A stretch of 64,000 nt of DNA from positions 1,004,661 through 1,068,660 of the forward strand of contig PLJL01000004.1 in NCBI GenBank assembly GCA_003140215.1, given 5' to 3'. Origin of the DNA: Vulcanimicrobiota bacterium. Its GTDB lineage: Bacteria > Vulcanimicrobiota > Vulcanimicrobiia > Vulcanimicrobiales > Vulcanimicrobiaceae. Below, in pieces: positions 45,526 through 49,313 of the stretch. The position numbers and the translations under genes are program-made. The notes beneath the pieces are model-generated. The model saw only the letters and a list, made by a program, of their open reading frames with translations, did not search any database and was not told where the DNA came from. Position 1 is the first letter of the stretch; every line of letters begins with the position of its first letter.

Positions 45526-45555
45526 TTGACGCGCGCGGTGGGGTTCTGGTACGGT
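45526..45555 (+). promoter_or_regulatory. promoter of the met leader
   Basis: TTGACG (45526-45531), 18 bp, TACGGT (45550-45555) preceded by TGG. Only 8 nt separate the -10 from the leader ATG, so the RNA starts one or two bases before it. The same TGG-TA-N-GGT pattern occurs in front of the thr leader. Confidence 0.6.
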
Positions 45556-45563
45556 GGCCCGAC

Positions 45564-45638
45564 ATGAACGGACGCTGTATGGCGATTATGGCGATGTGTG
45601 CCTCCCGCGAGGGACGGTGTAGATCGTCGTCGCCCTGA
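45564..45638 (+). CDS. Met/Cys-rich leader peptide of the metY operon (attenuator)
   Basis: 24 codons opening MNGRCMAIMAMC, then ASREGRCRSSSP. Four Met and three Cys codons, with Met at 6, 9, 11 and Cys at 12 just before the switch region. The bases coding for the end (GCGAGGG, 45607-45613) can pair with the 5' arm of the terminator at 45662-45689, while CCTC at 45601-45604 can pair with GAGG inside that segment. Ribosome stalling for lack of Met-tRNA (or Cys-tRNA) would thus favour the antiterminator. Its function is as a sensor, not as a protein. Confidence 0.75.
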   Translation: MNGRCMAIMAMCASREGRCRSSSP

Positions 45639-45661
45639 CCAGGCGGACGACAGACTACAGC

Positions 45662-45689
45662 GGCCCTCGCCACTCGGCGGGGGCCTTTT
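45662..45689 (+). terminator. attenuator terminator before metY
   Basis: GGCCCTCGCC, loop ACTC, GGCGGGGGCC (10 bp with one G-U pair), then TTTT. It lies between the leader stop and metY (45739). CCCTCGC in its left arm is complementary to the leader segment GCGAGGG. Confidence 0.8.
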
Positions 45690-45738
45690 CGTTTCCCACC
45701 ACCCTCTGCGCTCGACGCATTCGTGAAGGAGACCCACG

Positions 45739-47037
45739 ATGAGCAGCACCCTCGACCCCGCGGCGACCCGCGGCTTCGACACCGTCGCCCTGCACGGCGG
45801 ACACGGCGGCGACCCGACGACCAAGGCACGCGCCGTTCCGATCTACCAGACGACCTCGTACACCTTCGACGACACCGCCCACGCCGAACGGCTCTTCTCG
45901 CTCCAAGAGTTCGGTAACATCTACACGCGGATCATGAATCCGACGACCGACGTGTTCGAGCAGCGCCTAGCGGCGCTGGAAGGCGGTGTCGGCGCGCTGG
46001 CGCTCGCCAGCGGTCAGGCGGCGGTGATCTACTCGCTGCTCAACCTCGCCCGCGCCGGCGACCACATCGTCAGCTCGGCGTCGCTCTACGGCGGAACGTA
46101 CAACGCCTTCGTACACACGCTGCCGCGCTTCGGGATCGAGGTGACGCTGGTCGGCGCGTCGGATCCGGCCGCATTCGAAGCGGCGGTGCGGCCCAACACC
46201 AAGGCCATCTTCGCCGAGACGCTCGGCAACCCCAAGCTCGACGTGCTCGACGTCGCCGCGATCGCGCGGGTCGCGCACGACTGGGACGTGCCGCTCATCG
46301 TCGACAACACGCTCGCGACGCCGTACCTGTTGCGGCCGATCGAGCACGGCGCCGACATCGTCGTGCACTCGGCGACCAAGTTCATCGGCGGTCACGGCAC
46401 CACGATCGGCGGCGCGATCGTCGACTCGGGCACGTTCGACTGGAAGGCGTCGGGCCGGTTCCCCGATTTCGTGCAGCCGGATCCGTCGTACCACGGCGTC
46501 GTCTACACCGACGCGGTCGGCCCGCTCGCATACCTCGTCAAGGCGCGCGTGCAGCTGCTGCGGGACATCGGGGCGGCGCTCTCCCCGTTCAACGCCTGGC
46601 TGCTGTTGCAAGGACTCGAGACGCTGGGGCTGCGCGTCGAGCGGCACAGCGCGAACGCGCTGCGCACGGCGGAGTTTCTGCAGGCGCACCCCAAAGTGCT
46701 GTGGGTGCGCTATCCCGGCTTGCCGGACGATCCGGCGTACCCGCAAGCGCAGCGGTATCTCCCCAAGGGCGCCGGCGCGATCTTGACCTTCGGCGTGAAG
46801 GGCGGCGCCGACGCGGCGCGCGCGCTCATCGACCGGTTGGAGCTGTTCTCGCTGTTGGCCAACGTCGGTGACGCGAAGTCGCTGGTGATCCATCCCGCCT
46901 CGACGACGCACCAGCAGCTCAGCCCGGCCGATCAGATCGCCAGCGGCGTCAGCGACGATGCGGTGCGGCTCTCGGTGGGGATCGAGTCGATCGACGACAT
47001 CCTGGCCGACTTGACGCAGGCGCTCGACGCGTCGTGA
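45739..47037 (+). CDS. metY: O-acetylhomoserine (thiol)-lyase
   Basis: 432 residues, PLP enzyme of the Cys/Met metabolism family. The opening [29 protein letters not shown], cut here as [10 protein letters not shown] and [10 protein letters not shown], and the long insert [21 protein letters not shown]-type region mark the OAH sulfhydrylase branch. The PLP lysine is in [13 protein letters not shown]. It makes homocysteine from O-acetylhomoserine and sulfide. GAAGGAG precedes the ATG. First structural gene of the attenuated met operon; overlaps metX by 4 nt. Confidence 0.93.
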
Positions 47038-48131: not shown

Positions 48132-49135
48132 CCGAACGCGTTTTTCAGACCGCCCGGCACACGAGCACGTATCTCGAGAGCGGGCCGCCGGAGGGACCGC
48201 TCATGATCTTCGTGCACGGCTGGCCGGCGTTGTCGATCATGTGGCGCGCGCAGCTCGGGCATTTCGGCGCGCTGGGGTACCGCTGCGTTGCGCCGGACAT
48301 GCGTGGCTACGGCGGCTCGAGCGTGCCGGCGCGTGCGGAGGACTATGCGCTCGAGGCGATCGTCGAAGACATGGTCGAGCTGCAGCGCGGGCTCGGAGCC
48401 GAGCGCGCGATTTGGGTCGGCCACGACTGGGGCGGTCCGGTCGTCTGGGCGCTGGCGGGGCATCATCCCGAGCTGTGCCGCGGCGCGGTGAGCTTGTGCG
48501 TCCCGTATTTCGCGCGAGGTTTCGCGCCGGATACGCTCGTGCCGCTGGTCGACCGCACGATCTACCCCGAACCAAAGTATCCCGCCGGTCAATGGGACTA
48601 CCAGCTGTTCTACCAGACGTCGTTCGAGGCGGCGACCGCGGCGTTCGAAGCCGATCTGCCGGCCACGTTCAAGGCGTTGTTTCGGCGTGGCGACGTGCGG
48701 GAGAAGGGCCGGCCCGCGCTCACAGCGCGGATCAATCGTGACGGCGGCTGGTTCGGCGGCGCCGGGCGCGCGCCCGATCTTCCCCGCGACCCTGCGGTCC
48801 TTTCGGAGGACGATCTGGCGCGCTACGTCGCCGCGTTCGAGCGGACGGGATTCTGGGGAGCCGACGCCTGGTACGTCAATCCCGCGCGCAACATGGACTA
48901 TGCGGCCCGCGCGCTTGACGGCGGGACGCTGCACTTGCCGGTGCTGTTCCTGCACGCCGCCTACGATGCCATCTGCGAAACGGTCGACTCGCGCATGGCC
49001 GAACCGATGCGCCGCGATTGCCGCGATCTCACCGAGCACGTTCTCGAGACCGGGCACTGGATGGCGGCCGAGCAGCCCGCGCAGGTCAATGCGGCGCTCG
49101 AGACCTGGCTCGCCGCGAAACACAAGGCTTGGTAA
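48128..49135 (+). CDS. alpha/beta hydrolase (epoxide hydrolase/haloalkane dehalogenase-like) in the met operon
   Basis: 335 residues. Oxyanion HGWP (FVHGWPAL), conserved PDMRGYGGSS, nucleophile Asp in WVGHDWGGPVVW, acid near LPVLFLHAAYDAIC, catalytic His in GHWMAAEQP. This is the epoxide hydrolase/fluoroacetate dehalogenase type. GTG start inside the metX stop (GTGA) proves nothing about function but shows it belongs to the met operon. Its role in methionine metabolism is unknown; the frame is open upstream only as a shadow of metX. Confidence 0.88.
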   Translation: MTERVFQTARHTSTYLESGPPEGPLMIFVHGWPALSIMWRAQLGHFGALGYRCVAPDMRGYGGSSVPARAEDYALEAIVEDMVELQRGLGAERAIWVGHDWGGPVVWALAGHHPELCRGAVSLCVPYFARGFAPDTLVPLVDRTIYPEPKYPAGQWDYQLFYQTSFEAATAAFEADLPATFKALFRRGDVREKGRPALTARINRDGGWFGGAGRAPDLPRDPAVLSEDDLARYVAAFERTGFWGADAWYVNPARNMDYAARALDGGTLHLPVLFLHAAYDAICETVDSRMAEPMRRDCRDLTEHVLETGHWMAAEQPAQVNAALETWLAAKHKAW

Positions 49136-49140
49136 ACCTC

Positions 49141-49169
49141 TTGCGCCGGCGCCTCAGGCATGGTAGGGT
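49141..49169 (+). promoter_or_regulatory. promoter of the thr leader
   Basis: TTGCGC (49141-49146), 17 bp, TAGGGT (49164-49169) preceded by TGG. The leader ATG follows after 9 nt. It lies 5 bp past the hydrolase stop, so hom has its own promoter. Confidence 0.6.
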
Positions 49170-49178
49170 CGTCCAACG

Positions 49179-49259
49179 ATGGCCGCGATCAGCATGATCA
49201 CGACGACGACGATCACGACTACCCTCGGCGAGGGCAGGTCTGGATTGACGTCGGCGTAA
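49179..49259 (+). CDS. Thr/Ile-rich leader peptide of hom (attenuator)
   Basis: 26 codons beginning MAAISMITTTTITTT, then LGEGRSGLTSA. Residues 7-15 are seven Thr and two Ile, matching the idea of E. coli ThrL (Thr and Ile control). Just after the Thr run come CCCTC (49222-49226), GGCGAGGGC (49227-49235), and, in the terminator, GCCCTCGCC (49285-49293) and GGCGAGGGC (49299-49307). Segment 2 is fully complementary over 9 bp to segment 3. Stalled ribosomes on the Thr codons would leave 2 free to pair with 3 and prevent termination. Confidence 0.85.
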   Translation: MAAISMITTTTITTTLGEGRSGLTSA

Positions 49260-49282
49260 CGCAGCCGACTAGAAACAGATCG

Positions 49283-49313
49283 AGGCCCTCGCCGCTGCGG
49301 CGAGGGCCTTTTT
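49283..49313 (+). terminator. attenuator terminator before hom
   Basis: AGGCCCTCGCC, loop GCTGC, GGCGAGGGCCT: an 11-bp perfect stem followed by TTTTT. It lies 24 bp after the leader stop and about 50 bp before hom. Confidence 0.9.

Follow-up and report, generated by a model that had tools for sequence, protein, structure and literature searches.

The metZ and hom operons described here lie in a 64,000-nucleotide stretch of DNA (the window, C4:1004661-1068660 of the source genome; coordinates follow window numbering unless they carry the prefix C4), and each is preceded by a short leader that appears to act as a ribosome-mediated transcription attenuator, its leader peptide being translated from a leaderless or nearly leaderless mRNA. 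We put the probability of this reading, for these and for the other leaders discussed below, at about 85%. As judged by sequence comparison, many amino-acid, sulfur-assimilation, and aromatic genes in this order of Eremiobacterota, a group of uncultured soil bacteria, are preceded by leaders of this design in which mainly the sensing codons differ.

All features of the metZ and hom leaders and operons are on the plus strand. The predicted metZ leader promoter (45526-45555) consists of TTGACG (45526-45531), an 18-nt spacer, and TACGGT (45550-45555), and the leader ATG at 45564 lies 8 nt after TACGGT. The leader ORF (45564-45638) encodes MNGRCMAIMAMCASREGRCRSSSP, followed by a stop codon, with Met and Cys as the sensed amino acids. 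The antiterminator is made of a 5' arm (GCGAGGGACGGTGTAG, 45607-45622) and a 3' arm (CTACAGCGGCCCTCGC, 45655-45670) that overlaps the left arm of the terminator; both were placed by alifold of nine sequences, including that of the source genome, and by pair counts. The intrinsic terminator (GGCCCTCGCC/GGCGGGGGCC, 45662-45689) is a 10-bp hairpin (45662-45685) followed by TTTT. Downstream are the gene of a metZ-type O-acetylhomoserine sulfhydrylase (homocysteine synthase; 45739-47037; NF006096, 736 bits, above the cut-off) and that of a metX-like homoserine O-acetyltransferase (47034-48131; NF001209, 324 bits, just below the cut-off of 331). Elsewhere in the window, a HipA-like gene lies on the minus strand at 43870-45437 (TIGR03071 match), and an HTH-like frame, recognized by eye upstream of it, may form with it a toxin-antitoxin pair.

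The hom leader is built in the same manner. Its predicted promoter (49141-49169) has TTGCGC (49141-49146), a 17-nt spacer, and TAGGGT (49164-49169), and the ATG at 49179 lies 9 nt after TAGGGT. The leader ORF (49179-49259; MAAISMITTTTITTTLGEGRSGLTSA and a stop codon) would sense Thr and Ile. The 5' arm of the antiterminator (GGCGAGGGC, 49227-49235) and its 3' arm (GCCCTCGCC, 49285-49293), which is within the left arm of the terminator, come from duplex and fold predictions; alifold of 11 hom leaders does not contain this pairing. The intrinsic terminator (49282-49313) has 13 bp (49282-49310) and a T tract to 49313, and the homoserine dehydrogenase gene, hom, follows at 49349-50548 (NF004976, 342 bits, above the cut-off). 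The close named matches of hom are isolates of Candidatus Eremiobacterota (WPS-2), e.g., palsa_1480, 1479, and 1478. The metZ and hom leader RNAs each fold better than 200 of 200 shuffles (z = -4.2 and -5.3, respectively). The original observation that the two leaders share their promoter spacing, an antiterminator directly after the sensing codons, and a terminator with GGCCCTCGCC is confirmed for both.

Based on these elements, the leaders may work as follows. RNA polymerase would start about 0-4 nt ahead of the start codon of the leader, and the ribosome, rather than using a Shine-Dalgarno site, would begin at the 5' end of the mRNA. Under scarcity of the sensed aminoacyl-tRNA, it would stall on the sensing codons; a segment with a GGCGAGG core, within the leader ORF just downstream, would then pair with the left arm and loop of the terminator, and transcription would continue into the operon. 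When the aminoacyl-tRNA is plentiful, the ribosome would pass over the antiterminator segment, the terminator would form, and transcription would stop. Family medians place the first sensing codon 18-44 nt before the antiterminator arm (6 nt in cysH), so that in most families a ribosome stalled at the sensing codons would leave the arm free. The arm extends past the stop codon in many families, and in metZ and hom of the source genome the stop codon is more than 20 nt beyond the antiterminator core; a ribosome at the stop would therefore not fully cover the core.

The codons of the leaders follow the pathway of the gene downstream. The leader frame is richer in sensing codons than the other two frames for Thr/Ile/Met in hom (0.42 vs 0.02), Met/Cys in metZ (0.27 vs 0.06), Leu/Ile/Val in ilvC (0.44 vs 0.14), Phe/Trp/Tyr in aroA (0.24 vs 0.03), Thr in thrC (0.32 vs 0.01), and Tyr in the Tyr leaders (0.18 vs 0.02). 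Such enrichment occurs in nearly every family and is weakest in ilvE (0.38 vs 0.29); the binomial values for the codons ignore the relatedness of the leaders and are indicative only. Within the genus, a metZ leader with Met/Cys codons could be read in nine of 11 genomes (the terminators of G001 and G031 being placed by hand), and G078 has a model match only. For hom, a Thr/Ile/Met leader could be read in 10 of the 11 genomes as well as in G094, a member of another genus; in the eleventh, G088, it is a model match only. Six genomes from other genera have Met/Cys codons in the hom leader instead (homMet; e.g., MSSRDFAMMPAMCWMQMHSAKGVTHRVR), and six more such leaders were found later. L024, L029, L033, L016, L026, and L027 carry a different sensor before the same gene that has a Thr/Ile leader in this genus. 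Among 30 hom loci, 17 have a leaderless-type leader, one (G015) has a Shine-Dalgarno-type leader, 10 have none, and two are cut by contig ends. The G015 leader (L031) is a Thr/Ile hom leader with a Shine-Dalgarno-like AAGGGAG before its ATG and does not look leaderless.

An intrinsic terminator was found between the leader ORF and the first gene, with some T tracts short or broken. Within the genus, four operon families (hom, metZ, ilvC, and ssuA) are conserved, and in these, conserved GC-rich hairpins, mostly with a T tract, lie 18-87 nt upstream of the gene. Covariation supports the predicted antiterminator in metZ, ilvC, and ssuA and is weak in several other families. With the right arm of the terminator omitted, alifold recovers the antiterminator of metZ (14 bp, nine sequences) and that of ilvC (10 sequences), and does not recover it in hom, homMet, and ssuA. 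In ssuA, a leader base and a base of the terminator loop form A-T in four sequences, G-C in five, and G-T in one, so that the pair holds in 10 of 10. The terminator does not explain this covariation, since its base is in the loop; the exchange between A-T and G-C may represent one or two events. Support for an antiterminator that excludes the terminator comes from alifold for metZ and ilvC, from loop covariation for ssuA, from swap tests for homMet, and from complementarity only for hom; it is weak or lacking in cysH, leuA, and a few others.

Among the first 45 leaders, the leader-terminator duplexes have family averages of -27 to -34 kcal/mol, as against -18 to -22 kcal/mol for shuffled leaders. 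In the set of 163 leaders, pairing beats the shuffled-leader mean in 143 and reaches z under -1.64 in 98, a value reached by none of three cysH, two leuA, one sulP, and five unassigned Cys leaders. A leader's own partner beats the mean of swapped partners in 83 of 123 cases; the swap test shows nothing for hom (4/11), aroA (4/8), and cysI (3/7). With longer segments, the own partner is at least as good in 71 of 110 swaps for hom, 26 of 30 for homMet, 61 of 90 for ilvC, 52 of 72 for ssuA, and 40 of 72, which is little, for metZ. In the source genome, the fold from the antiterminator arm to the left arm has -39.4 (metZ) and -42.0 (hom) kcal/mol, whereas the terminator hairpins alone reach -21.9 and -26.8 kcal/mol; since the compared segments differ in length, these energies show just that both structures are stable.

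It had been proposed that an EGR tripeptide common to both leaders reflects a constraint on the RNA. All 11 hom leaders keep EG (GEGR in six; CEGR, GEGG, SEGG, or GEGE in five), and the nine metZ leaders have REGR (five), REGW (one), and PRGTV or SRGPV (three). The last three, in G091, G001, and G031, arise from the same nucleotides read in another frame, with TGTAG giving the stop. In the metZ leader of G011, the change of R to W occurs together with CAACC replacing CGGCC in the terminator, and the antiterminator pair is T-A in place of C-G. The shifted frames and this matched change argue that the nucleotides are conserved rather than the peptide. The proposal therefore holds for hom and metZ, to which EGR is confined; it does not extend to ilvC, ssuA, and the other leaders read, from which EGR is absent. 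The shared terminator sequence GGCCCTCGCC, present in metZ and hom, likewise proved too narrow, being one form of a CCTCGCC terminator core that is the common part; ilvE of the genus has CCCCGGCC.

The further cases expected from a genome scan depend on how the pattern is drawn. The literal one, CGAGGG-N35..65-CCCTCGCC-N3..15-GGCGRGGG, has two matches in the 3.88 Mb genome, namely the metZ and hom leaders, and none when reversed as a control. Because it matches the given pair alone, a looser terminator pattern and then covariance models were used, and these do find others. The looser pattern gives five sites in the source genome: the metZ and hom leaders, an ilvC leader (MSARLVLVLGVILLTVPPNRRAAFA), a divergent ssuA leader (VTTRRCCLMPIFMCCRPIRDRQGSA), and one ordinary terminator. 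The ilvC leader is about 1.1 kb outside the window and had been taken for an ilvB leader; the operon in fact opens with ilvC, which the leader precedes, and no leader was found directly upstream of ilvB in the source genome. The ilvC leader could be read in eight genomes of the genus and in G048 and G094, whereas the other 19 of the 29 ilvC loci inspected have none directly upstream. All nine genus genomes with a close ssuA show the ssuA leader.

A first covariance model, built from 41 leaders of the four operon families, recovers these families and matches further ones at E-values down to 3e-13. In the genus these are ilvA (Ile), cysI (Cys/Met), a metB-like gene (Met), ilvE, aroA and a pheA-aroF fusion (both Trp/Tyr/Phe), peroxiredoxin (Cys), cysH (Cys), and a separate metX. 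The last (L273, in G089) has its own Met leader rather than following metZ, and L237 (G031) and L376 (G085) are poly-Cys leaders before a peroxiredoxin-like gene. A second model (R2), built from 72 leaders, has seven strong matches in the source genome (hom, metZ, ssuA, ilvC, ilvE, aroA, and pheA-aroF; E 2e-20 to 7e-12), the remaining ones being antisense or overlapping copies, the ordinary terminator already mentioned, and weak matches that are mostly unread. Outside the genus, R2 matches 32 of 38 genomes at E 0.01 or better and adds ilvB, leuA (MLVTSLLLLALALVGRS...), thrC (Thr runs), SulP, and others. With stricter filters, a search of the phylum matches 78 of 149 genomes: 11 in the genus, 56 in the rest of the family, and four in the sister family, which makes 71 in this order, and in addition two in the class and five more distant. 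The seven class- and phylum-level matches are weak (E 4e-6 to 6e-4) and their leaders unread. With seven strong copies in the genome, four families in the genus, and matches in 78 phylum genomes, the original idea of a reusable cassette with changed sensing codons is supported, and on a larger scale than first suggested.

The downstream genes were named by hmmscan for metZ, metX, hom, ilvC, ssuA, the ilvB of the window, ilvA, cysI, peroxiredoxin, metB, ilvE, aroA, pheA-aroF, and the metX of G089, with the peroxiredoxin and the G089 metX scoring just under the cut-offs. In the wider set, hmmscan was applied to one case each of leuA, thrC, aspartate kinase, SulP, a sodium symporter, and cysH; other genes of that set, including its ilvB genes, and cysH of the genus were assigned by eye from the first residues. 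Several candidates were set aside: C4:1210391, an ordinary terminator; L262 and L264, apparently likewise; L316 and L321, which gave no leader; and L317, whose leader is not convincing. Five others (L335, L338, L344, L351, and L358) were excluded as repeats of the first set. The resulting 163 leaders include the doubtful L393 and L405 and exclude the tRNA-Cys leader of G091 (L244/L274).

Across these 163 leaders, a few of them doubtful, the start codon is ATG in 148 and GTG in 15, the predicted -10 box lies 6-12 nt before it, a -35 box with at least four of six matches is present in 140, and a Shine-Dalgarno-like core occurs at 12 starts. The gap figures are partly built in and are not a blind test, since 118 of the starts were picked by promoter score (37 allowing gaps of 5-11 nt and 81 allowing 4-12 nt). 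In the first 45, the same rule finds a Shine-Dalgarno-like core at two leader starts vs 27 structural starts (metZ 9/9, ilvC 10/10, ssuA 7/9; hom and homMet together 1/17, where the annotated start is uncertain). From the predicted promoter spacing and the scarcity of Shine-Dalgarno sequences, it is reasoned that leader translation is probably leaderless.

How the set arose is a separate matter. It is tentatively proposed that a single ancestral leaderless attenuator spread through the order by copying and re-coding and would control amino-acid supply overall, through sulfur, Met, Thr, branched-chain, and aromatic genes and even tRNA-Cys. Another possible account, which is compatible with attenuation, is that the leaders arose separately and that core and spacing converged under GC-rich composition and a compact design; the core is indeed read in different frames across families, and the sensors are unrelated. 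Convergence is harder to reconcile with a four-family model that matches other families at the E-values given above, with four of the five core-bearing terminators in the source genome being leaders, and with a scan of the window in which, among six hairpin-T sites, only the metZ and hom leaders have the core.

The proposal of a copied attenuator bears on two unusual cases. A Cys-rich leader and terminator stand directly before tRNA-Cys in two of seven tRNA-Cys loci read, at 25 nt in G091 (L244/L274) and 44 nt in G094 (L275/L334), with an unspecific antiterminator in the former (-24.3) and a strong one in the latter (-36.5). If copying is correct, tRNA charging would here control the transcription of the tRNA's own gene. 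Sulfonate ABC transporter-like genes, assigned by eye, lie downstream of tRNA-Cys in G094. In seven genomes, a Tyr leader (L341, L347, L354, L373, L381, L382, and L406), mostly with a YYYYG or YYY run, precedes a conserved, unannotated protein that was assigned as haem-oxygenase-like from weak, sub-cut-off Pfam matches (Haem_oxygenas_2); profile and sequence searches gave no credible solved structure for it. The copied-attenuator reading predicts a tyrosine-linked role for this protein, perhaps that of an enzyme such as a CADD-like pABA synthase, which is a guess.

Two other readings concern the mechanism itself. Leader translation could mainly control translation of the next gene, the hairpin being secondary, as in the leaderless Cys uORF of mycobacteria described in the cited accounts (PMC9031893, PMC13236596); this is unlikely given the conserved GC-rich hairpins, mostly with T tracts, that separate the leader from the gene in all four families of the genus. 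That the leaders are metabolite riboswitches or T-boxes with incidental small ORFs is scarcely credible: conserved structured leaders do precede Met and other amino-acid genes, but no Rfam family reaches the gathering score in the window, and the codons follow the amino acid, including the Thr/Ile of hom in this genus vs Met/Cys in others.

Ribosome-mediated transcription attenuation, the reading preferred here, is an established mechanism, and individual leaderless examples of it are on record for Actinobacteria. The classical thr, ilv, trp, and his attenuators of Proteobacteria combine stalling codons, an antiterminator, and a terminator, as here, but their leader ORFs are typically led by Shine-Dalgarno sequences and unrelated between operons, whereas the present ones appear leaderless and share a core. 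In C. glutamicum ilvBNC, as outlined in the cited text, a leader peptide with branched-chain amino-acid codons is combined with a terminator and antiterminator, and transcription starts one nucleotide from the start codon, without a ribosome-binding site (PMC11857589). That account concerns one operon in one actinobacterial lineage, in contrast to the many operon families that here share a core and a putatively leaderless layout. Leaderless short Cys-codon uORFs lie upstream of sulfur genes in mycobacteria (PMC4633059, PMC9031893, PMC13236596), where, according to these accounts, downstream translation is attenuated, whereas a terminator is present here. Leader peptides before cys operons, without obvious terminators in the account given, were described by Seliverstov in 2005 (PMC1262725). 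The ilvB-OMG, ilvB, and ilvB-II RNA motifs are uORF attenuators described for ilvB only (PMC10272879). No paper on Eremiobacterota with an attenuator was found, and among the matches listed (open-licence titles and abstracts) we recognized no precedent for Met leaders, leaders at tRNA genes, or leaderless Met/Thr leaders. What appears to be new is the order-wide set of putatively leaderless attenuators in Candidatus Eremiobacterota and, within it, the Met, aromatic, Tyr, and tRNA leaders.

Two individual cases surprise most, namely tRNA-Cys with a Cys leader in front of it and the haem-oxygenase-like protein with its Tyr leader. For an uncultured phylum, these leaders would provide a readable amino-acid regulon in which pathway genes may be guessed from leader codons. 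If the reading is true, attenuation on leaderless mRNA would be a general system and not an exception, and the role of leaderless initiation in attenuation would thereby become testable.
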